This document shows, in pieces, positions 10,584 through 51,373 of a stretch of DNA of 64,000 bases (position 1 is its first letter; every line of letters begins with the position of its first letter). This stretch comes from Saprospiraceae bacterium (GTDB lineage: Bacteria > Bacteroidota > Bacteroidia > Chitinophagales > Saprospiraceae). A program made the position numbers and the translations under genes. The notes beneath the pieces are model-generated. The model had not been told where the DNA came from and ran no database searches. It saw only the letters and a program-made list of their open reading frames with translations. Where the stretch lies: assembly GCA_019187365.1 (NCBI GenBank), contig JABARE010000001.1, forward strand, positions 124,001-188,000. Reading direction: 5' to 3'.

Positions 10584-10657
10584 GGTCCCGTAGCTCAGCT
10601 GGATAGAGCAACTGCCTTCTAAGCAGTAGGTCTCAGGTTCGAATCCTGACGGGATCA
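10584..10657 (+). tRNA. tRNA-Arg(TCT)
   Basis: A 74-nt cloverleaf. Acceptor GGTCCCG (10584-10590) pairs with CGGGATC (10650-10656) with one G-T wobble. D stem GCTC/GAGC; anticodon stem ACTGC/GCAGT around loop CTTCTAA with anticodon TCT; variable loop AGGTC; T stem TCAGG/CCTGA around TTCGAAT; discriminator A at 10657. The 3' CCA is not encoded (CGA follows). It reads AGA arginine codons. Confidence 0.97.
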
Positions 10658-36795: not shown

Positions 36796-36811
36796 CCCTA
36801 TTTCAATAGGG
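36796..36811 (-). terminator. Short hairpin across the stop codon of the first adhesin gene
   Basis: CCCTAT-TTCA-ATAGGG (6-bp stem, 4-nt loop) spans the TAG stop of the adhesin gene at 36798-36800. No T tract follows, so it is a weak terminator or mRNA 3'-end structure at best. Confidence 0.3.
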
Positions 36812-39800
36812 TGATGTTGCCGATCTTAACGTGTTGTTCCTGCTCAAGGCAACTGAATTTTAGTAAGTAGCCGAAGACATCGGGCGATAACTTTTTGTTT
36901 TTGAAAGTTCCATCCCAGCAGAAGGTGGGATCTGTTGTTGTGAAAACCTGCTCGCCCCACCGCGAGTGAATGATCAGCTCCACTCTGGCCAGCGTACCTG
37001 CGCGGGAGCGTATGCATAACTCGTCATTTTTGGAATCCCCATTGGGGGAAAAGGCATTTGGCAGGAATACTGCGTCCGGGCATGTTTGAACAGACACCTG
37101 GCCATCAGCCGTTGCGGTACAACCGTTTTCATCCGTTACGGTTACGGTATAGCGGGTTGTTTTTAATGGGCGTGCAATGGGATTGTATATGGTGTCATTG
37201 TTGAGGCTCCCATCCTTTGGCTCCCAGTTATAATGCCATCCGGGTTTGTAGGTCGCAGTAAGTTGTGTTTCCTGCCCAACGACCACTATATCAGGATCAA
37301 CAGAGACCTGTAATTCCGATGCCGGGTCACTCAACTCTACGGTATGATAAAAAGTCCAGACACAGCCCTCTGCATTGGCAATCGTTACAGAGAATCGAGT
37401 TTCGCCTGATATAATTGCCAATATGGTGCTGTCGTGCAGGTCGCCCAGAATGATTGCACCGGGCTGCCATTCGTAGGTATAACTTCCATACGGCTCGGTC
37501 TGAGCTGCGAGACGCACCGTATCACCCAGGCACACGACATCAGGTCCGGTGATCGAGCCCTTTAGCTCGTAGAGCTCGATGTGCATGGTGTCAGAGGCGG
37601 AACATCCGTAAGCATCGTACACTTTTAATATATATTCTCCTGATGCTTCAATATCAATTTTAAGGACGGGCCCATCAGCAAGAAGCTTTCCTTCCAGGGT
37701 GCACCAACTGTACTTGACATCAGGAGGATGGGCAATGCCCGTAATTTGCAAGCTTCCCTTAGCACACAATATGGTATCCCTGCCGGCATTGGCAAAAAGG
37801 GCCGGAGCCACCAACACGTATACACTGTCCATTGCCGCACAGGAGTCTGGATAATCCGGATCTCGTACTGTAACATAATACCAGCGGCTGATGTCCGTAT
37901 TACAAAGTGGGTTGTGTGAATGCACATCGCTGAGTCCTTCAGGAGGGCTCCACGTATACAGCAGTTTCGGATTTCCACCCGGGTTTAGCGCAACGGTGTC
38001 TCCCGGGCAAAGGAATAAACTGTCGCTTAATTGAATTTTCAAATCGACAACGATGACCACTTGTTCCGCAAATCGCTGGCATATCGTGTCAGATTTCACC
38101 CGGATGGTGTATTTTCCTGGTTTCAAATACAAATATTTCCCGGATTGGCTCGTCGAACTACCAACCCCATCGCCGAAATCCCAAAGAATTCTGCCAAGGG
38201 CATTTGTGCTGTACCCTACTTCAAGCGAACCGCATTCGTTCGCGATTTTAATTTCGGGTATAGGATGATCGATGGATACCAATTTTATGCTGTCGGTAAT
38301 TGAGCAGTTATTTTCATCCCAGGCTGTAAAGACCAACCAATAAACTCCGGCATGAACGGGGTATGCCCAAATGGCTTTCTGGTTCTTGTCGCCGTGAAGG
38401 ATTGGATGGTCGTTCCACCTGATGCGGACGGAATCATTTGGTGAAGCAGTCTGAACGGTAATTTGAACGCTGTCGCCTGCACACAAAGAATACTCTTTTT
38501 GAAATTTCAACTCAACTTTCCTGTATTTGACTAGGATGGAAGCTGTATCCTGACATTCCGTACTGTCTCCAGCCATCACATAAAAGCGTGTATTTTCGCT
38601 GATCCGGGTTGAAAACACGGAATCAGATGATAGAATATTATGGAAGTCTGGGGCTTTGGACCATTTAAAAATATTTGTGGAATCAGAAGAAGCTCTAAGG
38701 GTAACATATCCATCACAACTCACGCTATCTCCCGTTAAAAGGAGATTCACGTTGTTTCGAACCACCACGAGAATTGCTGCCTCAAGACTGCAAGGCCCTT
38801 CGCTGATTGTAACGCGGTAAGTCGTCGTTTTCGATGGTCGCGCCAGAGGATTAGAAGGGTCACTCAGATCCAGCCCTTCGGTTGGCTGCCAGTTATAGCT
38901 TAAACCGGGTTTCGAGGATTTGACCAGACGCACGGAATCGCCTATGCACAGTTGATGCTCATCGCCGTTAAACTCTATGTCTATCAGCGGGATTTCTAAC
39001 GAACGTTTAATACTGTCCGCACATCCAAATTCATCTTTTATTCTTAAAAATATTTCGTATTTTCCACGTTCCTTGAAGAATAAGGTGGTGTCGCCGCCAG
39101 TAATTTGAATCGTACCTTGGGGGGCTGAGACCGTCCACCAGTGTTCCAATATTGAATACCTTGCAGAAGATAAATCTTCCAGTTTAAGTGATGCCACAGA
39201 ATCGCAGGATACTTCAAATTTGAAATTCGCATCGAGTTGTGGGTCTATGACGGTGACATTTAAGAAGGCTGTATCAATACACGATAAGTTTTTAACGATG
39301 AGGGCCACCTGGTAAGTCCCCGGCTTGGAGTAGATAAATGCAGGATCTCTCATCTGTGAGCGTAGCGAGCGATCGTTGATCCAGTCAAAATACCATAAGT
39401 ATTCTGAGCCACCCATGCTTTCATTGCGAAATGCAATGCTCAGTCCGTCGCAAAGGTCCGAGGAGAGGGTAAACGCGGCAGTTGGCATGGTGCCGCATGC
39501 GACTACATTGATCTCAAAGTCCCTGTACACAGTTGAGAGCAGTTTCCCTCCCCGGTAATCTGAAACACAGATGCCTACCAGGTATTGACCGGGCGTGTTG
39601 GGCATAAGCTGTATGAGGCCTGAAACTGGATCGATCGCGAGAAGGCTGCCGTTTAAGTTTCCCAAACCATTTCCCGTTTTCCATAACAATTGCGTGTAAG
39701 GTGGCGTGTCCGGTCGTCCTGCTGGGTCGTCAAATGTTTTGCCCTGATACGGCGTGTAAAGGGAGTACACAAGGGAATCACCAGAACCGTCGGGGTCTGT

Positions 39801-40412
39801 GGCGGCATGGCCAAAGGTGAAAGGTGCTCCGAGGCATGTATAAATGGGGGGGAAGTCTCCAAACTGAGGCGAATTGTTGGCAAGCGGAGTAACGTTTGCT
39901 ATGAGCGTCATGCCGGTCTGGGCAGGTTGTTCGATGTTATCCAGCGTTTTGTTGCGGCAACAACGCTGGTAAACGAGGAGGTATCCTCGCTCGTCGAACG
40001 GGATGAAAACGGTATCGATGTAGGTGCTTTGGTGTACACAAACCGGAGTGTATCCGGAGGGGCATATTGTATCTATGCGCTCGAAGAGCGTGTCGTCATT
40101 CATGCGTTGAAACCGAAAGGTGCCGTCATTTCCGACGCGAAAGGCCTTTTCCTTGTCCTCGTCGTTGTAAAATACTCCAATGATGGCCGGATTGTCGAAG
40201 GGAACGGTGTCAGAGCCATGGATGCAGTCTCTTCTTACCACGAGTTTGATTTCGTAGCGGTTGTTTCCGAGGTAGCGGTAAGTAAGTTGGCCACCGACGA
40301 TGTGCGAGGCGAGGATATCCGTGAATGCAGACAGGATGATTGTCAGAGCAAGAATGGTTCTCAACACTATGATGCGTCCGAACGACGGATTATTCTTGTA
40401 CCAATATGGCAT
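36798..40412 (-). CDS. PKD-repeat surface protein with T9SS type B sorting domain (copy 1)
   Basis: About 1,204 residues. Signal peptide (LRTILALTIILSAFTDILA) then the conserved block SHIVGGQLTYRYLG, VVRRDCIHGS and LVYQRCCRNKTLDNI. Residues about 190-320 form a cadherin/Ig-like block (FGHAATDPDGSGDSLVYSLY). Several PKD-like domains (YLWYFDWI, ILWDFGDGVG) and MUC/Ig-like repeats (YNWQPTEGLDLSDPSNPLA, YTWSPPEGLSDVHSHNPL) follow. The end is a gliding-motility-associated type B CTD: FLPNAFSPNGDSKND, IHSRWGEQVF, CWDGTFKNK, GYLLKFSC. ATG 40412 (MPYWYK) is chosen because copy 2 starts MLTWYK; ATG 40424 overlaps the upstream stop (TAATG). It is the last gene of the porP-porE-adhesin unit. Confidence 0.9.
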   Translation of the reverse strand: MPYWYKNNPSFGRIIVLRTILALTIILSAFTDILASHIVGGQLTYRYLGNNRYEIKLVVRRDCIHGSDTVPFDNPAIIGVFYNDEDKEKAFRVGNDGTFRFQRMNDDTLFERIDTICPSGYTPVCVHQSTYIDTVFIPFDERGYLLVYQRCCRNKTLDNIEQPAQTGMTLIANVTPLANNSPQFGDFPPIYTCLGAPFTFGHAATDPDGSGDSLVYSLYTPYQGKTFDDPAGRPDTPPYTQLLWKTGNGLGNLNGSLLAIDPVSGLIQLMPNTPGQYLVGICVSDYRGGKLLSTVYRDFEINVVACGTMPTAAFTLSSDLCDGLSIAFRNESMGGSEYLWYFDWINDRSLRSQMRDPAFIYSKPGTYQVALIVKNLSCIDTAFLNVTVIDPQLDANFKFEVSCDSVASLKLEDLSSARYSILEHWWTVSAPQGTIQITGGDTTLFFKERGKYEIFLRIKDEFGCADSIKRSLEIPLIDIEFNGDEHQLCIGDSVRLVKSSKPGLSYNWQPTEGLDLSDPSNPLARPSKTTTYRVTISEGPCSLEAAILVVVRNNVNLLLTGDSVSCDGYVTLRASSDSTNIFKWSKAPDFHNILSSDSVFSTRISENTRFYVMAGDSTECQDTASILVKYRKVELKFQKEYSLCAGDSVQITVQTASPNDSVRIRWNDHPILHGDKNQKAIWAYPVHAGVYWLVFTAWDENNCSITDSIKLVSIDHPIPEIKIANECGSLEVGYSTNALGRILWDFGDGVGSSTSQSGKYLYLKPGKYTIRVKSDTICQRFAEQVVIVVDLKIQLSDSLFLCPGDTVALNPGGNPKLLYTWSPPEGLSDVHSHNPLCNTDISRWYYVTVRDPDYPDSCAAMDSVYVLVAPALFANAGRDTILCAKGSLQITGIAHPPDVKYSWCTLEGKLLADGPVLKIDIEASGEYILKVYDAYGCSASDTMHIELYELKGSITGPDVVCLGDTVRLAAQTEPYGSYTYEWQPGAIILGDLHDSTILAIISGETRFSVTIANAEGCVWTFYHTVELSDPASELQVSVDPDIVVVGQETQLTATYKPGWHYNWEPKDGSLNNDTIYNPIARPLKTTRYTVTVTDENGCTATADGQVSVQTCPDAVFLPNAFSPNGDSKNDELCIRSRAGTLARVELIIHSRWGEQVFTTTDPTFCWDGTFKNKKLSPDVFGYLLKFSCLEQEQHVKIGNITLLK

Positions 40413-40423
40413 TCTACCCTGCA

Positions 40424-42844
40424 TTATTCCTGGATTTCGATGATCTCGACGCGACGTTCACGGGAAGCGCCGACCGTATACACCGAGCGAAGATCCTTTT
40501 TCTGGTCGCTGATGCCATCTGGGGCTTTGGTTTCTCCAAAAGGCTTTTCGCTGATCTTTAGCTTGCCCAGCCTGATGTACTTTCGGAGTGCACCGTTGCG
40601 ATATGCCAGAAATTCGCTGTAAACGCTGTGAATTCTCCTCTGCGATAAATTGTAGTTATACGTCGAATTAGCAAGAGGAGAAGCAAAGCCTTTTAGGAAG
40701 ATTTCGTAGTTTTTTCCTCGCCGTAGATCGGCCTCCAGTGCCACGAGGAATCGATCAAATTTTTGCTTTCCGGCACGAAGCTCAAATTCAAAAAAGTTTT
40801 GCATGGTGTCGCTCACCGGAAGGCTGTCGAATAATTCGAGCTCGTTGGAAATTGCAATAAACTTGCCTTTCCTTCGGAAATAGTTTGAGAAACTCATTCC
40901 GTAGCCAATGGTTGATACGGTGTCAAGGGTTCTCGGATTTGGCCGGTCATTGTCAAAATACAATGCGATCGGCAGCATGCTATACAATAAGTTAGGAAGA
41001 TACAGTTTCTTGTTTTGCGTCCCCTTAACCCCACAATCAATGGTAATGATGGTGTCAACTTTTCCGTAACCGGGTCTTTCAGCAGTAATTATATACTTGC
41101 GGCAGGGAACGATGTCTAGCCGTTTCGTACTGATGTCATGCGCCGAAAACAGAGTATCCAAACCTCCTTCCATGTCGCGCACCCTGATCTGGACACTGTC
41201 GAGAAGGGTCTGGGATTGTTTTCCGTAACTTACAATCTCGAGTGCGACATCTGCCGGTTTAAGGAATAATTTTTTAGTAATAGACTGGTATTGGCCGGGT
41301 TTGCCGGAATAAAAAGTTGCCGAATCTCCTGTGAATTCAGATTTAGAAGCCACGAGCTTATAATTTCGACCGTTGAGGATGTCGAAAGAATGATCAGTAC
41401 CATCCGTCAGCACTACAATTACAGGTAAACTCAGGGTATCGTCCAGATCAATCAGCGAAAGCGTGCAACCGCTCAGTGGCAATTGTGTGAAGTAATGAAG
41501 GGTCGAAACGTGTAACTTCAACAAGCTGGGGTATGCGTTTACTTTAAATATGTCGAGGCAGCAAGCCTCGGTGACGTCGTCGAGGAAAAGTGATCCGCTG
41601 CGATTGGATGCCAGGTGCCCTGTGGTGTCTGCGGCGGTCAACCCGTAGTAGAGCTCATCAAAACTGGTATTGACCGGTTGACCCATATTTACGGGCTTGG
41701 AGAAACCCGCTGCATGCTGGTATGCCGAGAACACATCGAATCCGCCAAATCCCAAGTGCCCTTTTGAGGAAAAAAAGAGTTTATTTGCAGCACCATGAAA
41801 ATAAGGAGTCATCTCGTCTGCTTCCGTATTGATCTGGGAGCAGTTTACCGGTTCTGAGAATTGCCCCACGGGATCAATTTCCGAATACCAGATATCAAAG
41901 CCTCCCCTGCCCCCTCTTCGGTTCGATGCAAAATATAGCCTGGCATTGGATCCCTGGCTGGCGGCAGCATAATTGGGTTGAGTCGTGCTCGCGCTATCCA
42001 GATTGATGGGAGCAGGCAATTTAACTCCGGAACCCCAGTGCCCGCTTGAATCTAAATGGCTCACGTAGATATCGCAGCGCTTGTCATAATCGTCTATGTC
42101 ATCGCACAAGGTATAGTAAACCACCCTGCCATCCGGACTGAACGAGGAATGTGCAGCGGAGCGGTTGACTTCGTTCAATGTATCCTTGAATAACCGGTCG
42201 GCGCTTAAGCTGGTGTCAGAAACGAGAATCGAAGCGAGATATCTTTTAGGAATGACAGGGTTGCGAACATTCTCAAAGCGAAGAGAAGAAAAATAGAGGC
42301 TGTCACCATGTATGGCGGGTGCAAAATCTGAAAATGAGGTATTGACCGGAAAGTCCAACCGGACGACCTTTTGGTTCGTGTCTTTTTCTGTGCTGTTGGC
42401 CAGTGCCCACTGCGCAGCGCGCAACTCCCTTTCCGCTTGCAGGGAATGTTGTAAGCTATCGGAGGAATAGCTCGTCAGGTACTGCTGGAATGCAATGATG
42501 GCGCGGGCGTAATCTCCCTGGACCCTGCGCATCTGCCCTAGATGAAATGCTGCATTTGGATAGATCTCGCGCGCATCTCCCGCAGTTACCTGTTCAAACA
42601 GATCACCTGCGATCCGGTAAGCGCCCAAGCCCATACCAGCCATGGCTGCTCTATAGACATAATCATAATTACCGGGCTCGAACTCCATTGCTTCGCGGTA
42701 CTTTGCATAAGCATCGTAGAAGTTTTTGCTATGCATGGATTTCTCAGCAACTTCCAGAATTGAACGAAGCGATTGTGCTTGTAAATAACTCGTGGAAAAG
42801 CCCATCGAAGCGACGATCCAACCGATCTGAATGATTTTCTTCAT
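40424..42844 (-). CDS. PorE-like TPR/PD40/OmpA-family protein (copy 1)
   Basis: Protein of 806 residues with a signal peptide (to about YLQAQ). Domain order: TPR-like helices (30-140), PD40/WD40-type propeller blades (160-430, with YFASNRRGGRGGFDIWYS, FFSSKGHLGFGGFDVF and HLASNRSGS), the motif ACCLDIFKV, a region of small beta domains (440-620) similar to carboxypeptidase-regulatory folds, and an OmpA-like C-terminus (690-806: LKGFASPLANSTYNYNLSQRR, RERRVEI). This is the PorE layout of the T9SS, but without an obvious lipobox. In the OmpA part the usual GHTD Asp is replaced (GFAS). It overlaps the adhesin start and lies 7 nt after porP. Confidence 0.86.
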   Translation of the reverse strand: MKKIIQIGWIVASMGFSTSYLQAQSLRSILEVAEKSMHSKNFYDAYAKYREAMEFEPGNYDYVYRAAMAGMGLGAYRIAGDLFEQVTAGDAREIYPNAAFHLGQMRRVQGDYARAIIAFQQYLTSYSSDSLQHSLQAERELRAAQWALANSTEKDTNQKVVRLDFPVNTSFSDFAPAIHGDSLYFSSLRFENVRNPVIPKRYLASILVSDTSLSADRLFKDTLNEVNRSAAHSSFSPDGRVVYYTLCDDIDDYDKRCDIYVSHLDSSGHWGSGVKLPAPINLDSASTTQPNYAAASQGSNARLYFASNRRGGRGGFDIWYSEIDPVGQFSEPVNCSQINTEADEMTPYFHGAANKLFFSSKGHLGFGGFDVFSAYQHAAGFSKPVNMGQPVNTSFDELYYGLTAADTTGHLASNRSGSLFLDDVTEACCLDIFKVNAYPSLLKLHVSTLHYFTQLPLSGCTLSLIDLDDTLSLPVIVVLTDGTDHSFDILNGRNYKLVASKSEFTGDSATFYSGKPGQYQSITKKLFLKPADVALEIVSYGKQSQTLLDSVQIRVRDMEGGLDTLFSAHDISTKRLDIVPCRKYIITAERPGYGKVDTIITIDCGVKGTQNKKLYLPNLLYSMLPIALYFDNDRPNPRTLDTVSTIGYGMSFSNYFRRKGKFIAISNELELFDSLPVSDTMQNFFEFELRAGKQKFDRFLVALEADLRRGKNYEIFLKGFASPLANSTYNYNLSQRRIHSVYSEFLAYRNGALRKYIRLGKLKISEKPFGETKAPDGISDQKKDLRSVYTVGASRERRVEIIEIQE

Positions 42845-42851
42845 CGTTCAA

Positions 42852-43877
42852 TTAGAAAACCGGGCAGGATTTGAGTTGTATAAGTGGACGCGATTTGGCG
42901 AAAACATGCGTCAGGCTGAATTCCGGACCTCCCCGGCCATCGACGGCTTGTTCAAAAGGCGAGTTGGTAATGTCGTAACTTACTCCTCCATACCATTCTT
43001 TGAATCTCACGCCGAGTTTGGGAATGATGGCATCGCCGTTTCGAAGCGAGCACCCAAGGTAAAGGTCAAGCTCCTTCCCCCTTTGCCGGTTGAGGTAAAT
43101 TCGCAGGTAGGCGCCGAAAAGCAACTCTTCAAAACTCAGCTGGCGCTGGTACAGACCGTGCGCCATGAGATCGAAAGACTCAGCGATTTGAATGCTTGGA
43201 AGCGCCTGGAACGAGAGGCGAACCGGGAGTCGGATGCTCAGAGACTGATCAAAAAACTGCTGGTTGGGCTGGTTGAGGTGGAAAGCGGCAACCCCAAGGT
43301 CTATGCGGGTGCGGTTGGACTTTTGCCACCGATACGTGAAGCCTGCACTGAGGTCGGGAAATAAGTTTGTGTTCTTTTCGAACAATTCTCCAGATGGAAG
43401 ACTCGGATCGAAAACGTTTCCGTTCCACTGTGCGTCCCAGGTGAGTTCGTCGGGTTTAAAACGGCGGTGAGCCAAAGCTGCCATGACTCCGGCAGAGACC
43501 AGGTTATGGGTGTTGACCGGATAGGCATATGAGACGGCCAGACCGAGTTGGGCCAAACCGAGTTTAGAATCTCCTGCCTGGTCGTAGGCAAATTGCAGGC
43601 CTGCGTTCCAAATTCCCTTTTGGGTCCATTTTTTAGGGTAAATCTTGTATTCAAACGACCCTGCAAGGGTCAGAAAGTTGCCGGCGTTGTTGGTAAACCA
43701 CTGCTTGCGGAAATTGAGATTGAGGCGCTGGTCACCTTTGAAAAGACCTGTAGTGGAAGGATTGTACAGCAAGGGCGCAGTGTAGAACTGGGAATGGTGA
43801 ATGTCCTGAGCCCCTGCCCTGAAGATGGCAAGTGCAAAAATCCCCACTACAGACAGAAACCCAATGCGTTTTGTCAT
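42852..43877 (-). CDS. PorP/SprF family T9SS outer-membrane protein (copy 1)
   Basis: Protein of 341 residues: signal peptide (to RAGA), then the PorP/SprF start QDIHHSQFYTAPLLYNPSTTGLF, the FRKQWFT segment, a run of barrel strands (GLAVSYAYPVN, LSAGFTYRWQ, LDLGVAAFHLNQPNQQFF, LPVRLSF) and the last strands LGVRFKEWYGGVSYDITNSPF. It ends in CPVF, as the second copy ends in CPLY. SprF is needed for export or attachment of SprB in F. johnsoniae and is encoded next to it; here the neighbour is the type B surface protein two genes on. Confidence 0.92.
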   Translation of the reverse strand: MTKRIGFLSVVGIFALAIFRAGAQDIHHSQFYTAPLLYNPSTTGLFKGDQRLNLNFRKQWFTNNAGNFLTLAGSFEYKIYPKKWTQKGIWNAGLQFAYDQAGDSKLGLAQLGLAVSYAYPVNTHNLVSAGVMAALAHRRFKPDELTWDAQWNGNVFDPSLPSGELFEKNTNLFPDLSAGFTYRWQKSNRTRIDLGVAAFHLNQPNQQFFDQSLSIRLPVRLSFQALPSIQIAESFDLMAHGLYQRQLSFEELLFGAYLRIYLNRQRGKELDLYLGCSLRNGDAIIPKLGVRFKEWYGGVSYDITNSPFEQAVDGRGGPEFSLTHVFAKSRPLIQLKSCPVF

Positions 43878-44256
43878 GCGATGTACTTTCCGATCTCAGC
43901 GCATAATGCCTTGTCTATCAATATTATACGCTTGAGTTAAAAATCAAGCTCGACGGTTACAACCGCCGGAATGCTCCGTCAGAACTTCACAAATATAACA
44001 CTTAACAATAATTAGTTCAACACTGAGCTAGGCTACCTCAAAAATCGTCATGTTGGTGCCAGAAAGAAAGGGGCTGCCACTCTTCATTCCTTATGGGTGG
44101 GCATGGAAGAATTTAGGAAATTAGGACGGGGCGTAGCGATGGAAGCTGTGTGGAGCAATAAATGACTGAACCGTAACAAAGTATTGCATAGCGAAATTCA
44201 TTGAGTGCAAAAGTCTTTGCGGTAAGAATGGCGCAAAGGAGCCATTCGAGGTGCCC
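43878..44256. other. 379-nt intergenic region between the two T9SS modules
   Basis: It holds the promoter of module 1 (at the left, before porP copy 1) and the 3' flank of module 2. The left half is AT-rich. No gene-like frame, tRNA or repeat was seen. An inverted repeat at 44226-44247 is described separately. Confidence 0.5.
44226..44247 (-). terminator. Candidate terminator hairpin after the second adhesin gene
   Basis: GAATGGC and GCCATTC (7-bp perfect stem, 8-nt loop), 10 nt after the stop of the adhesin gene on the minus strand. The following bases have no strong T tract, so efficiency is doubtful. Confidence 0.35.
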
Positions 44257-47200
44257 TCAACGCAACAAAGTCACATTTCCTTTTTGAGCATATTTTTGGC
44301 CGTCGGTACAGGTTGCTACGAAGTAATAACCGTAGACATCGGCGGGAACGCTGGAACCTTTGAAGGTCCCGTCCCACCATTTCTGGATGTCTTTGGTTTC
44401 AAAGACCTTTTCGCCCCAACGATCGTAAACATACATCTCCACCGACTCCAGAAAATTGCTCCGGATGCGCAAAATGTCGTTTTCGCCGTCACCGTTGGGG
44501 CTGAAAATATTTGGCAGATAGACGTCTTCTTCGTTGCATTTGGGTAGAACGACGATTACCGATACGTCTGCAACCCCTTTGCACCCATCCTTGTTGATGG
44601 CTGTGACCTGGTAAAGAATGGATCTTTGCGGATTGGCTATGGGATCCGGGCACATCGTGCAACTGAGGTTGGTTGGTATGACCCAGGTATAATCCTGATG
44701 GCCAGGTGTTACGTTCAATTGTGTGGACTGGCCGAGGTAGATCTTGGGAGGGTCAGCCCAGGCTTCCAGGGGTGGATTGAACTGGCTGATGTTGACCAGG
44801 AAGGTGTCGCTGTAGGCACAGCCATACTCATTCACAAAGTTGAGCTGGTATATCGTTGTATCGCGCGGGCGGATTTTGATCCATGGACGATTCTGATCCG
44901 TGACAATGCTGTTGTTGCTGGCCGTCCACCTAAAGGTGTACTGGTGTGCATTTAGGTTAATAAACTCGATCGTCCCGTCCTGGTTGGCACAACGCAAGCG
45001 ATCTCCCTCTATGCGGTACTGAGGATGAGATGTAATGACGCGAAAGGAATCTACGTCTCCACATCCGTATTTGTCGGTAGCATAAGCAAATACCCATCCT
45101 GAGTCGGGGAATACCTGCTCCAGCTGGTAGCCCCTTCCGAGCAGTATCCCAATTTGATCTGTCCACTCAATGCTCGGAACAACCGTATCGGTAGTCGCTT
45201 TTAGCAACAGGGTATCTGTATAGCAAAGTATGGTATCTGAGTTTACCTGTAGGCCAATGGCAGGAGGCACAAAGACGGTCACTTCCCGGTCGATAAAACA
45301 ATCGGGAATGTCTTTGTCGAAAACGCGGACCTTGTAAGTTTTAGTTGATGATACCGTTGCCGTAGGATTGGGTGAAGCCGGATCGTCGAGTCCTTCTGCC
45401 GGGGTCCACGAGTAATTGTAGTTAACATTGGCATTCGGATTGAGTGGGACCGGCTTCCCGTTACAGCTTACCACGCGGTCTTGCAATTCGACCATGATCA
45501 GGCCAATGTCAAGGATGCTGTCAAGTTCATTGGAACATTCAGAATTCACCGTTAGCCGCACGGTATATCTTCCTGGCTTGGCGTAGAAATGAACCGGGCT
45601 CATTTCTGAAGAGGATTCGTTATCGCCGAAGTCCCACATGTAATTCCCCGGGGCACTCTCATTTGTAAAACTGACAAGAGTATTGTCGCAGTTTTTTTCT
45701 ACCCTGAAACCCACATCAGGCTTGCATACTGAGCGCACCATGACCGTATCGGAATCTGTGCATAGGTACTGGTTTATGGCGGTTACCATCACTGGGAAAT
45801 CTCCGCAATCGGGGAGCACTATTTTCACTTTTTCACTTCCCTGCCCTTCCAATATGAAACTTCCTGGCTCCCACTGATAAAGAATATTTTGGCCAGGTAC
45901 ATGGTTGACGACGTTCAGTTCAAAGCTGTCCTGCTGGCAAATCCGGGCAGAATCCAGCGCTGGATTAAAGCGGACTTGCCGGTTGTATACGATGATGCTG
46001 TCGCCACCTGGGCAGTTGAATGCGCTTTTGCCCCGGACGTAAAAAATGGCGCTGTCGCGAACGGTAGCTTTAAGCTTGAAGTCGCCACTGCCGAGTATGT
46101 TGGAAAAATCTGACCTATCTGACCATTCGATTGTAGATTCTACGCCGCCATTGGCCTGGAGCTCAATCTCTTCACTGCAGAGGACGGTGTCGGCAGCAAT
46201 TTGTAAGTTTAGCAGGGTGCTCACCATTACATACACAGAATCTTCGATGGTGCAGTTTCCGTCCGTCAGTACGAGCCGATACCAGGTATCCCGGGTTGGA
46301 GTCGCCAGAGGGTCCGGGCAGTCAGCGCAGTTTAGACCTTCAGATGGAGACCATTGATAAGAAAACCGGCTGTCCGGGTTGAGGATAAGACGTGTTGATT
46401 CCCCTATGCAAATGGGGATCTTATCTAATACAAATTCTGGTTTTAGGCGGTGCAACACAAAGTCCTGCTCAAAGTAGGCTTCACACCCGCCCTCAGAATG
46501 CACAGTCAGACTTATGGTGACGGTGCCAGTATCCTGGAATACGAATTTCGGATGCCGTTGAGTGGAAGTGACTATTTTGTTGTTTAACCGGGCACTCCAG
46601 TTCCAGGTATCTATATTTAAGAGTGAATCGGTGGAGAGATCAGAAAGAGCGAGTTCAATGCTATCGCGACAAGCTTCGTAGCTCGCCTGAAACCGGGCTT
46701 TCAAATACCCTTCGCCGTATATGAAAATATCCTTATAGTTTGTGTCAATGCATTCTTTGGCGCGATTTGCAACGAGGGCTACTCGATATTTGCCAGGCCC
46801 CGGGAAGGTGAATTCCGGATGGGTTTCCTTTGAAATGTAGGTTGTATCCGGAAAATTGAAGAGCCAGGTGTAATCCCTTGCATTGATGCTGTTGTTTGTA
46901 AATCGGACAGTTGAATCCCCGACGCAAAGAACCGTATTGTCGGCTTCGAAATTGCTCACGGGATTGGTCGTGCAGAATCGCACGTTGTATTGAAAATCCC
47001 GGCGAACACGAGACAGCAGTTTGCCGTTGCGGTATTCGGAAATGCAAATGCCTACGAGGTATTGACCAATGGCATTCGGCTGGCCAGTGAGCAGACCGGT
47101 GTATTCGTCAATTCTCAAAGGTGGTGTTCCACCCAGCAGGTCATTTAGTCCGAAAGGAGCTTTGTACTGTACTTCGGGAAAGGGATACTTTGGGCGGCTT

Positions 47201-47868
47201 GGCTTGGAATTGGATGTGTCGGCACCGGCATATGGAACACACAATGAATAAACGATCGAATCGCCTTCGGCGTCGGTTGCGCTTTGATCGGAAACGATCG
47301 GTCTGTCGCCACAAATGTAAATGGGAGGAAAGGGCTTGAATTTGGGAGACGAATTGCAATACCTGAGCGCATCTTCCGAGATCACCACACTGTAAGTGGC
47401 TCCAATGAGCTCAGGATCCGTGATGTTGGTGATGGTTTTGTTCCGGCAGCACCGCTGGTAGGCCAGGATGTAGCCGCCTTTGATAAAAGGCAATTCAACT
47501 TTGCCACGATAGGTTGTTGTGTGGACGCACACATCGCCTCCGACGACCTCGCATTCTGTTTTTAAAATTTCATTGAGAGTATCATCCCTGCGAAACTCCA
47601 AAAGCAACAAACTAAAATCGCTGCGGGTCCGGATGATGGAACCTTCGCCGTCAAATATGCCGATATGGGCCGGGTCGTCGAATTCAGCTTCAGGACTTCC
47701 ATTAAAACAATCCCGCCGGAGGGTAAGGGTGATTTCATAAACCTGCCCGCCCAAACATCGGTATGTCATTTCCCCCCCGACGATGTGGCTTGCATCGGCT
47801 TCGCCTGACCAAAGAAACGTGGTGAGCAATACCAACGCTTTAGATGCATATTTATACCATGTAAGCAT
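44257..47868 (-). CDS. PKD-repeat surface protein with T9SS type B sorting domain (copy 2)
   Basis: About 1,203 residues, paralogue of 36798-40412 over its full length. Signal peptide, then SHIVGGEMTYRCLGG, LTLRRDCFNGSPEAEFDDP, LAYQRCCRNKTITNI, FPPIYICGDRPIVSDQSATDAEGDSIVYSLC. PKD domains (YTWLFNFPDT, YMWDFGDNES) and Ig-like repeats with YQWSPSEGLNCADCPDPLA and YSWTPAEGLDDPASPNP follow. It ends in the type B CTD YLPNIFSPNGDGENDILRI, YVYDRWGEKVFET, WWDGTFKGS, GYYFVATC. Start at ATG 47868 (MLTWYK, matching MPYWYK of copy 1); the earlier ATG 47907 lies inside the upstream gene. Probably an exported adhesin or motility protein. A role in gliding is not proven by the domain name. Confidence 0.9.
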   Translation of the reverse strand: MLTWYKYASKALVLLTTFLWSGEADASHIVGGEMTYRCLGGQVYEITLTLRRDCFNGSPEAEFDDPAHIGIFDGEGSIIRTRSDFSLLLLEFRRDDTLNEILKTECEVVGGDVCVHTTTYRGKVELPFIKGGYILAYQRCCRNKTITNITDPELIGATYSVVISEDALRYCNSSPKFKPFPPIYICGDRPIVSDQSATDAEGDSIVYSLCVPYAGADTSNSKPSRPKYPFPEVQYKAPFGLNDLLGGTPPLRIDEYTGLLTGQPNAIGQYLVGICISEYRNGKLLSRVRRDFQYNVRFCTTNPVSNFEADNTVLCVGDSTVRFTNNSINARDYTWLFNFPDTTYISKETHPEFTFPGPGKYRVALVANRAKECIDTNYKDIFIYGEGYLKARFQASYEACRDSIELALSDLSTDSLLNIDTWNWSARLNNKIVTSTQRHPKFVFQDTGTVTISLTVHSEGGCEAYFEQDFVLHRLKPEFVLDKIPICIGESTRLILNPDSRFSYQWSPSEGLNCADCPDPLATPTRDTWYRLVLTDGNCTIEDSVYVMVSTLLNLQIAADTVLCSEEIELQANGGVESTIEWSDRSDFSNILGSGDFKLKATVRDSAIFYVRGKSAFNCPGGDSIIVYNRQVRFNPALDSARICQQDSFELNVVNHVPGQNILYQWEPGSFILEGQGSEKVKIVLPDCGDFPVMVTAINQYLCTDSDTVMVRSVCKPDVGFRVEKNCDNTLVSFTNESAPGNYMWDFGDNESSSEMSPVHFYAKPGRYTVRLTVNSECSNELDSILDIGLIMVELQDRVVSCNGKPVPLNPNANVNYNYSWTPAEGLDDPASPNPTATVSSTKTYKVRVFDKDIPDCFIDREVTVFVPPAIGLQVNSDTILCYTDTLLLKATTDTVVPSIEWTDQIGILLGRGYQLEQVFPDSGWVFAYATDKYGCGDVDSFRVITSHPQYRIEGDRLRCANQDGTIEFINLNAHQYTFRWTASNNSIVTDQNRPWIKIRPRDTTIYQLNFVNEYGCAYSDTFLVNISQFNPPLEAWADPPKIYLGQSTQLNVTPGHQDYTWVIPTNLSCTMCPDPIANPQRSILYQVTAINKDGCKGVADVSVIVVLPKCNEEDVYLPNIFSPNGDGENDILRIRSNFLESVEMYVYDRWGEKVFETKDIQKWWDGTFKGSSVPADVYGYYFVATCTDGQKYAQKGNVTLLR

Positions 47869-47887
47869 TGGCAGTATTTTCTGTAAG

Positions 47888-50347
47888 TTATTGGTTGACA
47901 TTCTCATCTACTCCTTTTAAAATTTCCAAAATTTCCACACGACGTTCATAAGCTGCTTTGAGGCTGTACACGGAATTTCTCGTATCCAAAAGGTCGTCGC
48001 TCACATCAGATGATGCTTTGGATTCGCCAAACGGTATTTCCTTGATTTGAAATTCCCCTCCGGAGATGTAGTCGTGGAACACTTGGCCGCTGTAGCGGTC
48101 AAACTCATTTCTTACACTGGTCACACGCCGGGAGGACAACAATTGGTTGTAATCGGTTTTCGCGCGGGGCGATGCATAGCCCTTCAAAAAAATATCGATT
48201 TCGTGACCTTCCTCCAAAATGATGATCAGCTTTTCCATAAAGACAACCAGCTTTTCGGCATTGGATTTTACGCTCTGCTCAAAAAAAGTATCGATTTCCC
48301 GAACGGCTTTATCGCGAGCTGAGACGCGCAATCCACGTGTGAATTCATCAATGTAAGTCGCCTTGCGCGAATAGTAATCTTTGTAGATATCCAGAAAGCC
48401 AACACTGGTACTGTCAGATTCTGAACGGGGATCCGGCATGTCGTTTTCGAAGAATAAGCGTATGGGCAGCAGTTTGCGCAATTCGGCTATTGCCGTAAGT
48501 TCCAGGTACAAGTTGCGCTTAAGAATGGGCTCAAGCGCAGTTTCAAGAGGGGTAATGAGGATTTCTGCACTTTCGTATTTCGGTTTGTGTGCTCGCAGAG
48601 AATAGTTTTTGCCCTTCGGAACTACGAAATTAAAATCGTTTGTGTCAGCGTTGGTGACCTTTGCCATCAGAGTGTCTGCGTCGAGATCCCATAACTCAAC
48701 AGTGGCGCCCTTTAAAATGGCATTGGTCGTGCGCTCAAACGTGTGGGCATTGAGGTTTTTAAGTTCGGTCAGGTATAGCTGGCGGGTAATTTCTTCCAGG
48801 TTATCCAGGTCTTCCGTGCTGCAATATGTTGTGTCGGGCAACCATCCGGGTTTACTGCCTATCATACGATATTTGCGTTCTACTACTACCCTGGTGGGAT
48901 AGTCTGCTACGCTATCCTGTTGACCTGAATACACGGCGGAATCGCCTTCGGTGATGTCCTCAATCTGCAACCTGACTCCAAAAAGTGCGGATGAATCATA
49001 ACGGTCCAGCGTTCGGACGAGCAGATTCAGGGTCGCCGGCGTGAACTTGATTTTGTATATGTCGTAGCAGCAGGCCTGGAGTGATTCATCCAAAAACTGG
49101 GAGGCGGGTTTATTGGAAACGAGATATCCCTTGTGGCGTCCATCGTCTTCTTTGTAGTAGAGGTCGTCATAACTGCTGTTGATAGAAGGCCCTGCGTTGA
49201 TGATCTGGTTGGCTTCCTTGCCCCGGTAGGCATAGCGGTAAACGTCGTACCCGCCAAAACCGATATGCCCGTCACTGCTGAAATACAACGTTTGTGACTT
49301 TCTGTTGTAATGGGGACTGACTTCATTGTCCCGGGTATTGATGAATTCCAGATTCTCGGCCATCGAGGGAAATTCACCATCGCTTATCAAGGTGGAGTAA
49401 AGATCAAACCCGCCTTTTCCTCCGGGCCGGTTGCTGACAAAATACAATTTGTCAAGCCCGGTTTCCGGATCAATGCTCGCGTGTGGTTGGGTTGAAGAGT
49501 ATTTTGCCAAGTTCACGGGTTCCGGTAATTTAATGCGTGGTCCCCAGGCGCCTTGATCATTCTTGAATTTTACATAAATCTGGCAGTGCAGCCGGTCGAT
49601 TCCTTCCTCGTAGCTGCAAATGGAAAAATACACCTTTGTGCCATCGGGACTAAAAGATGGATGCACCATGTGCACTCCTTCCTCAACAAAATCTTTGTCG
49701 ATCGCCAATGGTTGTAACTTGTTTTCATCGTATTTGAGAATGGTGCCCGAGTTACGCTGAACTATTTCACCCTTCTGCTTCGGTTCAAAAACGTTTTGGG
49801 AAGAAATATACAACTCTCCGTTTGCAAAAACAGGATTGAATTCATTCTGGGGAGAGTTAACCCTTTCGTCAAGTCTTTTTAGCGCAATCAGAGGATCTTT
49901 GTTTTTGAGCTGTTTTTTGGCCCAGTGTATGGAGGCAATCCTGGTCTCTATTCGCTTGCGCATTTCCGGATCTTCATCCATATTGACCTGGAAGGATTTA
50001 TAATATACCAGTGCTTCTCCGTAAAATCCTTGCCTGAAAAGCGCTTCACCCAAATAGTATTCTACCAAGGGGTGTCTTTGAACAATATCCTTGTTTACAA
50101 TGAATTTGTAATGGCGAGCGGCCTGGGCGAAAGCATTCAACTGTAACGCGGCATAACCTGCCAACATGTGCAGTGAATCGCTCTCCTGTTTATAACTGAG
50201 AGCAATGTTCAGATCGTGGTAGGCAGCGTAGTAATCCTCTCTGGCCAGGTAGCCCGCAATGCTCTGCTGGTATTGCTTGAAGGATTGCCCATACACAGAA
50301 AGCAGGGAAAACAAACTTATAATCGAGGTGTGGATCAGCGTTCTCAT
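47888..50347 (-). CDS. PorE-like TPR/PD40/OmpA-family protein (copy 2)
   Basis: Protein of 819 residues, same architecture as 40424-42844. Signal peptide (to VYGQ), TPR helices to about 145, PD40 blades (YFVSNRPGGKGGFDLYS, YFSSDGHIGFGGYDVYRYA, YLVSNKPAS), then ACCYDIYKI, small beta domains, and the OmpA-like C-terminus with LKGYASPRAKTDYNQLLSSRR and YERRVEI. As in copy 1 the OmpA Asp of GHTD is absent (GYAS). It lies 9 nt after porP copy 2 and 19 nt before the adhesin. It is probably the periplasmic/peptidoglycan partner of the PorP barrel. Confidence 0.86.
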   Translation of the reverse strand: MRTLIHTSIISLFSLLSVYGQSFKQYQQSIAGYLAREDYYAAYHDLNIALSYKQESDSLHMLAGYAALQLNAFAQAARHYKFIVNKDIVQRHPLVEYYLGEALFRQGFYGEALVYYKSFQVNMDEDPEMRKRIETRIASIHWAKKQLKNKDPLIALKRLDERVNSPQNEFNPVFANGELYISSQNVFEPKQKGEIVQRNSGTILKYDENKLQPLAIDKDFVEEGVHMVHPSFSPDGTKVYFSICSYEEGIDRLHCQIYVKFKNDQGAWGPRIKLPEPVNLAKYSSTQPHASIDPETGLDKLYFVSNRPGGKGGFDLYSTLISDGEFPSMAENLEFINTRDNEVSPHYNRKSQTLYFSSDGHIGFGGYDVYRYAYRGKEANQIINAGPSINSSYDDLYYKEDDGRHKGYLVSNKPASQFLDESLQACCYDIYKIKFTPATLNLLVRTLDRYDSSALFGVRLQIEDITEGDSAVYSGQQDSVADYPTRVVVERKYRMIGSKPGWLPDTTYCSTEDLDNLEEITRQLYLTELKNLNAHTFERTTNAILKGATVELWDLDADTLMAKVTNADTNDFNFVVPKGKNYSLRAHKPKYESAEILITPLETALEPILKRNLYLELTAIAELRKLLPIRLFFENDMPDPRSESDSTSVGFLDIYKDYYSRKATYIDEFTRGLRVSARDKAVREIDTFFEQSVKSNAEKLVVFMEKLIIILEEGHEIDIFLKGYASPRAKTDYNQLLSSRRVTSVRNEFDRYSGQVFHDYISGGEFQIKEIPFGESKASSDVSDDLLDTRNSVYSLKAAYERRVEILEILKGVDENVNQ

Positions 50348-50356
50348 TTTCTGGAT

Positions 50357-51373
50357 TTAGTAAAGTGGACATTTTTTATAAATGCCCACGGGGTCTACAA
50401 TCCTGAACAAATACTGCACGCCGAGTTCCAGTCCGCCTCGCTGATTGGTTGCAGTACGGAAACCGGAAGTGTTGACGTCGTAACTGGCCAGTGCCAGCCA
50501 GTTTTTATACTGGAAGCCCAACATGGGGTAAAAAGCATCATCCAGTCGGATGCCGCATCCCGCCAGCAAATTCAGCCGGATTCCGGGATTGCGGTCGAGG
50601 TAAAAGCGGAGCAAGGCACTCCCGGTGCGCTCACGATATGGTTTTTGCTCCTGGTACTGACCAAACAATTCGATGTCCATGACTTTGCCAATGCCAATGC
50701 TCAGGGCCGCATGATAAACGGGGCGAACAGGAAGCCCAGTGGTTGCATAATTGGGACCATAAAACTGCTGCTTTGGTTGAAGGAGGTGAAAGAAGGCACC
50801 CCCAATTTCGAGGTAAGTTCTGCCGGATCGCGAATAGCGATACGTCAATCCTGCGGCAAGATCTGCATAAAAACTGCCCGTAACTTCAAAGTTCTCCCTG
50901 GATGGCAGGTCCTTTTTGTATTTCTCCCCGTCCCACTGGTTATCCCATTTTAACTTTTCTTCCGACAGTCGCCGCTGTCCAATCGACGGGCTTATCCCAA
51001 TGCGGAATCGGTGTTCCTTATTGATTGAAAAGCCGTAATTTAGGGATGCATTCAAAGAGGTCAGACTCAACTTTGAATCCCCCGCCTTGTCGTAATCCAG
51101 GCCGATCCCAACTCCGATAAAATCCTTGCCAGCACCAAGTTTGAGCGGACTGTCGTAATATAGACTCATGCTCAAGTAGGGAACCGGTACGGTATTCCAT
51201 TGACTGCGGTAGCTGGCGGTTACGCGGTGCTTACCGTGATACGCTCCTGCATGAGCAGGATTTTGCCCCTGGTAGTGCAGAAAATTCTGTGAGTAGTGGA
51301 TGTCTTGTGAGAGAAGGGTCCCCGCAAACGACAGCCAAACTGCAATTATATTATACGCATGCCTCTTTAGCAT
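50357..51373 (-). CDS. PorP/SprF family T9SS outer-membrane protein (copy 2)
   Basis: Protein of 338 residues. Signal peptide (to LLSQ), then DIHYSQNFLHYQGQNPAHAGAYHGKHRVTASYRSQW, the classical PorP/SprF N-terminus, then strands LYYDSPLK, LNASLNYGFSIN, FYADLAAGLTYRYS, LEIGGAFFHLLQPKQQFYG, LPVRPVYHAALSIG and the last strands LGFQYKNWLALASYDVNTSGF. It ends with KKCPLY. First gene of the second module; the 229 nt upstream must hold the promoter of the whole unit. Confidence 0.92.
   Translation of the reverse strand: MLKRHAYNIIAVWLSFAGTLLSQDIHYSQNFLHYQGQNPAHAGAYHGKHRVTASYRSQWNTVPVPYLSMSLYYDSPLKLGAGKDFIGVGIGLDYDKAGDSKLSLTSLNASLNYGFSINKEHRFRIGISPSIGQRRLSEEKLKWDNQWDGEKYKKDLPSRENFEVTGSFYADLAAGLTYRYSRSGRTYLEIGGAFFHLLQPKQQFYGPNYATTGLPVRPVYHAALSIGIGKVMDIELFGQYQEQKPYRERTGSALLRFYLDRNPGIRLNLLAGCGIRLDDAFYPMLGFQYKNWLALASYDVNTSGFRTATNQRGGLELGVQYLFRIVDPVGIYKKCPLY

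Follow-up and report, generated by a model that had tools for sequence, protein, structure and literature searches.

Tandem PorP/PorE-like/type B adhesin modules in a Saprospiraceae bacterium and a cysteine pattern suggesting a covalently locked anchor

Two adjacent three-gene modules in a Saprospiraceae genome each encode a PorP/SprF-type barrel, a PorE-like protein and a type B adhesin of the T9SS. Both units carry a lone cysteine in the C-terminal tail of the barrel and a vicinal cysteine pair in the PorE-like protein, and this pattern, read from the sequences, suggests a covalent lock between barrel and anchor. The modules lie in the window, the whole stretch of 64,000 nucleotides that was analysed. 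The triplet of PorP, PorE-like protein and type B adhesin is almost certainly a known kind of module, the idea of which has already been published; the part that seems to be new is the cysteine pattern. Assignment of the window genes to this class of anchoring module, based on sequence, family membership and published work on homologues, is held with high confidence.

In the proposed mechanism, the type B CTD would mark the adhesin for export through the T9SS translocon, after which the PorP/SprF-type barrel of the same unit would hold it. The periplasmic C-terminal tail of PorP would bind the PorE-like protein by docking on its propeller, and the PorE-like protein would tie the barrel to the cell wall. 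The lone tail cysteine would then attack, or exchange with, the vicinal pair in the last propeller blade, creating an inter-protein disulfide. The outcome would be a disulfide-locked static anchor, a mirror image of the link in which SprF contributes a CxC motif and GldK a single cysteine. Taken as a whole, with export, holding by PorP, the wall link through the PorE-like protein, the disulfide and an origin as old tandem paralogues, this explanation appears likely to us; for the disulfide between the PorP tail and the PorE-like pair, considered by itself, the chances are about even.

The first-pass annotation had described two neighbouring minus-strand units in the order porP, porE-like, adhesin, and all six reading frames are present (Table 1). 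Its description of the spacing, with the genes of a unit overlapping or within 20 nt of each other and 379 nt between units, also agrees with the sequence: porP and the porE-like gene are separated by 9 nt in unit B and 7 nt in unit A, while the porE-like gene and the adhesin gene overlap by 20 nt and 1 nt, respectively. Because of these short gaps and overlaps, the genes of each unit are likely co-transcribed. In the gap between the units, a promoter search returned a single weak match (TTGAAC-17-TATATT, 44020-43992), no more than expected by chance, and TAnnTTTG motifs across the window occur at chance level. The sole Rfam gathering-level match in the window is a tRNA gene at 10584-10657.

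Table 1. Features of the two modules, in window coordinates
Feature	Position	Strand	Description and evidence
porP/sprF-like gene, unit B	50357..51373	-	338 aa; ORF, BLASTP, family HMMs, AF2 strands, fold matches
PorE-like gene, unit B	47888..50347	-	819 aa; BLASTP, HMMs, AF2
Adhesin gene, unit B	44257..47907	-	1,216 aa; SHIVGG N-terminal domain, PKD repeats, type B CTD
porP/sprF-like gene, unit A	42852..43877	-	341 aa; ORF, BLASTP, family HMMs
PorE-like gene, unit A	40424..42844	-	806 aa; BLASTP, HMMs
Adhesin gene, unit A	36798..40424	-	1,208 aa; SHIVGG N-terminal domain, PKD and Ig-like repeats, type B CTD
Type B CTD, adhesin B	44260..44517	-	Residues 1131-1216; TIGR04131
Type B CTD, adhesin A	36807..37064	-	Residues 1121-1206; TIGR04131
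Codon for PorP B Cys335	50369..50371	-	C-terminal tail KKCPLY-COOH; ORF, family alignment
Codon for PorP A Cys338	42864..42866	-	C-terminal tail LKSCPVF-COOH; ORF, family alignment
Codons for PorE-like B Cys426-Cys427	49067..49072	-	Vicinal pair (QACCYDIY), last propeller blade; alignments
Codons for PorE-like A Cys428-Cys429	41558..41563	-	Vicinal pair (EACCLDIF); alignments
Gap between units A and B	43878..44256	-	379 nt

The relatedness of the matching members, also claimed at first pass, is confirmed by pairwise BLASTP, with identities far above chance for the PorPs (36%, 8e-70), the PorE-like proteins (31%, 9e-113) and the adhesins (34% across 1,212 columns, E=0.0). Both PorPs belong to the PorP/SprF family, scoring 132.6 and 123.1 bits with TIGR03519 (cut-off 90.55) and 108.2 and 95.5 bits with PF11751 (PorP_SprF; cut-off 22.3). 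A sequence search for a solved homologue of PorP found none. The AF2 model of the unit B protein contains 14 strands of at least 7 residues, which predicts a FadL-like outer-membrane barrel, and Foldseek matched this model to FadL and to the T9SS chain 8gl6_F (PorV-type fold). Each window PorP has a single tail cysteine instead of the twin CxC of SprF, and each is predicted to be the shuttle and anchor of its own type B adhesin. Profile searches of the whole genome returned nine matches for PF11751 and 27 for the type B CTD; the majority of type B proteins therefore lack a PorP of their own. One further PorP in this genome (L003:9182-10309, contig C13 of G000) ends in CPNF and has no adjoining PorE-like gene; any partner would be unlinked.

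The PorE-like proteins follow the domain order TPR, propeller, CRD and OmpA-like domain, according to AF2 secondary structure and HMM matches, with an extra beta domain and a long helical insert. In unit B, this gives a signal peptide, a TPR region, a beta-propeller, two beta domains and an OmpA-like domain carrying the helical insert. The NCBIfam model T9SS_PorE scores 149.9 and 142.2 bits over the N-terminal 400 residues only, far below its cut-off of 600; together, T9SS_PorE and CHU_0125_OmpA match the N-terminal half only, at 142-171 bits against cut-offs of 600-620. Searches for solved homologues yielded only weak TPR and OmpA-like matches. The first-pass label of PorE-like is correct, with one amendment: the OmpA-like domain at the C-terminus is of a divergent type with GxASP, and neither window protein has a Pfam OmpA match. 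In P. gingivalis PorE, peptidoglycan is contacted by Asp576, Asn584 and Arg591 (PMC7192894). The window proteins keep the Asn and Arg and have Ser at the position aligned with Asp576 (GFASP, GYASP), so that the Asp-Asn-Arg combination is incomplete. Ser occupies this column in 43/43 window-type proteins of the family alignment; a regex count made separately recognised 22 of these proteins, every one with Ser, and did not match the other 21. A crude lipobox pattern was found in 0/43 family PorE-like proteins. Because of the aligned Ser and the missing lipobox, these proteins are termed PorE-like and are not classed as PorE, and their peptidoglycan binding is putative rather than established. 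Lipid anchoring was also considered as an alternative to the disulfide and set aside, as few proteins of any group show a lipobox pattern, which leaves it without discriminating power.

Both adhesins exceed the TIGR04131 cut-off of 35 bits for the type B CTD, adhesin A with 39.4 and adhesin B with 55.2 bits; they also match CHU_C above its cut-off and contain PKD and, in adhesin A, Ig-like domains. Their N-terminal SHIVGG domain, which includes the QRCCRN motif, has no Pfam or NCBIfam match of its own. Most adhesins encoded after a family PorP-PorE pair have this domain, and at L051, L055 and L102 a single such pair precedes a run of at least two SHIVGG adhesin genes.

The arrangement extends well beyond the window. 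A family sample of 40 loci found by whole-protein similarity, together with the window, provided 43 PorP-PorE pairs. PorP directly precedes PorE in 43/43, and 42 of the pairs are followed by an adhesin with SHIVGG and/or a type B CTD, the exception being L085, where the contig ends ~2.5 kb away. The expectation that the three-gene module would recur in other genomes is therefore borne out in 41 sampled family loci, including the window, with invariant adjacency. Named relatives are mostly Saprospiraceae, and a PorE-like relative of unit B occurs in 61/61 sampled family genomes. A third PorP-PorE-like pair in the window genome (L005:7164-10494, contig C11 of G000) has the PorP tail CPRF and the PorE motif TCCDDIY; no type B adhesin was found directly beside it.

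The tandem pair is also shared. Two PorE-like copies lie ~7.3 kb apart in the genus relatives G044, G474, G495, G571 and G573 and ~7 kb apart in G469, and they are on different contigs in G528. L046 and L090 have two copies each, and each window unit clusters with one of the two in the tree. The presence of the tandem in at least five genus relatives indicates that the A/B split is old, and a common origin of both units was not rejected by the AU test (p 0.35 for PorE, 0.08 for PorP). The earlier wording of duplicated and diverged units is accordingly acceptable, and we propose that units A and B arose long ago as tandem paralogues and that each has a barrel, an anchor and an adhesin to itself.

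Within the family, the PorP tail reads Cys-Pro-x-aromatic/aliphatic-COOH. Its cysteine is present in 43/43 PorPs and is among 22 near-invariant columns of proteins whose mean identity is 38%. On the PorE-like side (unit A numbering), C247 and C257 are each found in 42/43, and the vicinal C428 and C429 in 40/43 and 43/43. Four loci (L075, L076, L078 and L096) have CxC instead of the vicinal pair, together with the PorP tails CPTC or CPMC, and five further loci have a more widely spaced PorE pair.

The pattern was then followed through 193 PorP-PorE pairs from three sets: family, named, and phylum and order loci. One of the two seed patterns of the named set contained CC, so this set is partly biased toward CC; the phylum and order loci were collected via PF11751 and via the cysteine-less PorE of L126. 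The PorE pair was scored by alignment columns, and in 57 added pairs by the CC columns and reading of the sequences; in L282, the pair is present as TCC in the raw sequence despite an alignment artefact. Both cysteine features occur in 139 pairs, neither in 47, the PorE pair alone in seven and the tail cysteine alone in none. The tail cysteine occupies the fourth-last position in 130 of the 139 and is the only cysteine of the mature PorP in 93, with the mature start estimated by pattern. The number of cysteines in the PorE loop is 0, 2 or 3 and never one across the first 136 pairs, a count that excludes the 57 added. The association between tail cysteine and PorE pair was perfect in those first 136 and was broken by the added order-level loci. 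On the tree, the PorE pair changes three times and the tail cysteine four times, and all three PorE changes fall where the tail cysteine is absent. An independent-pairs test of the association had too few events to reach significance. The association rests on three to four evolutionary events; what stays is a one-way dependence, in that there is no tail cysteine without the PorE pair.

The PorE CC is retained in seven pairs whose PorP has no tail cysteine (tails LFNPRF/Y and LFAPRF), six in one supported clade plus L249. That Chitinophagales clade, with LFNPRF/Y tails (L260, L264, L268, L270, L274, L280 and L281), has lost the tail cysteine, and 6/7 of its members have kept the PorE CC, which L270 has lost. 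PorPs with no adjoining PorE have a cysteine in their last 20 residues in 12/29 cases. PorE-like genes with the pair and no PorP beside them include five that are complete or near-complete, among them L114 with its uncertain upstream ORF, plus L253 and L258. In Flavobacteriia-type loci, 42/42 PorE-linked PorPs lack the tail cysteine, and most end in the conserved cysteine-less C-terminal peptide x-P-R-F-F (L166-L217), which may mark a docking site. No description of the tail cysteine and PorE pair pattern was found in the open-licence PMC literature, preprints excluded.

The covalent lock is favoured by the dependence itself, with 0/139 tail cysteines occurring without the PorE pair, and by the SprF-GldK precedent. 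The PorP shuttle of Saprospiraceae and many other Bacteroidota, but not that of the sampled Flavobacteriia-type pairs, may then be covalently locked to a PorE-like wall anchor, a generalisation that we regard as evenly poised. A less probable, still appreciable alternative is a non-covalent module of PorP, PorE-like protein and adhesin, in which the PorE pair forms an internal disulfide closing the last blade and the PorP cysteine is kept for other reasons, such as packing into a pocket. Flavobacteriia-type modules work without either cysteine feature, with xPRFF tails in most, and the seven pairs that keep CC without the tail cysteine point the same way. Against it, a lone invariant cysteine is unusual in an exported protein, and the one-way dependence would be left over.

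Structure prediction bears on the same choice. Two AF2 folds of a read-through fusion of unit B PorP and PorE (TAA read as Gly) gave confident domains, with pTM of 0.56 and 0.67; the output consisted of per-residue confidence and secondary structure, with no coordinates. The CC loop of PorE is ordered and the PorP tail is disordered and undocked (pLDDT 35-40), which would fit the non-covalent arrangement; in this construct, the free C-terminus is blocked and most alignment rows are unpaired. Of the check suggested at first pass, confident folding of the PorP and PorE-like domains was obtained, whereas an interface was not demonstrated by a fusion without a free C-terminus.

It is improbable that the tail cysteine is instead bonded to the GldK/PorK track as in SprF, which would make the adhesins mobile. 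The SprF-GldK disulfide is a direct precedent (PMC12635249), and the window genome has a GldKLMN-type locus whose candidate GldK contains three cysteines outside the lipobox. However, the tail cysteine tracks the PorE pair, the window PorPs have a single cysteine where SprF has CxC, and the PorE-linked shuttles of F. johnsoniae are read as static (PMC12618676). Furthermore, GldK Cys343 is reported as invariant (PMC12635249), yet all the Flavobacteriia-type PorE-linked PorPs surveyed lack the tail cysteine. Formation of PorP homodimers and adhesin clusters, which one cysteine per barrel would allow, is very improbable, as it leaves unexplained why the tail cysteine never occurs without the PorE pair.

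The way in which type B T9SS proteins are retained at the cell surface is under active study; a non-covalent PorE-PorP model and the gliding-track disulfides are already published. If the covalent lock is true, disulfides would serve two purposes in one barrel family, moving adhesins in the case of SprF-GldK and fixing them in that of PorP-PorE, and the partner that carries the cysteine pair would differ between the two. Additionally, the combination of tail cysteine and PorE pair would provide a sequence rule predicting covalently anchored modules.

In homologous systems, type B proteins are exported and anchored through PorP/SprF (PMC12635249), and the first-pass proposal of a self-contained three-gene anchoring module is supported by two published examples. 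In P. gingivalis, PorE, PorP and PG1035 form one complex, with direct PorE-PorP and PorP-PG1035 contacts (PMC9143113). The window modules likewise combine a PorP-type barrel, a protein with TPR, propeller, CRD and OmpA-like domains, and a type B CTD protein. However, P. gingivalis PorE is a lipoprotein that binds peptidoglycan via Asp576, Asn584 and Arg591, whereas the window proteins have no evident lipobox and carry Ser at the first of these positions; PG1035 is ~50 kDa, while the window adhesins have ~1,210 residues. In F. johnsoniae, five operons contain a PorE homolog, a type B substrate and an SprF-like shuttle and are read as static anchors; the substrate Fjoh_3952 appears static, and static foci are reported for triplet operons (PMC12618676). 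These operons (e.g. Fjoh_3952-3951-3950) hold the same three gene types in one operon. In the sampled Flavobacteriia-type loci, the adhesin gene usually comes first, followed by PorP and PorE; the tails are xPRFF and PorE lacks the cysteine pair. In the window, by contrast, PorP is followed by PorE and then by the adhesin, the tails are CPx[FY] and the PorE-like proteins have a vicinal pair. The third comparison is with the SprB-SprF-GldK gliding system of F. johnsoniae, in which the C-terminal tail cysteine of SprF is disulfide-bonded to GldK (PMC12635249). There, the bond is demonstrated, whereas for the window PorP and PorE-like proteins we infer it. Both systems use a PorP/SprF-family barrel with a cysteine in its periplasmic C-terminal tail and a periplasmic partner cysteine. 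They differ in that SprF has CxC and GldK one cysteine, while the window PorP has one cysteine and its partner a vicinal pair, and in that the window partner is predicted to be a static anchor and not a moving track.
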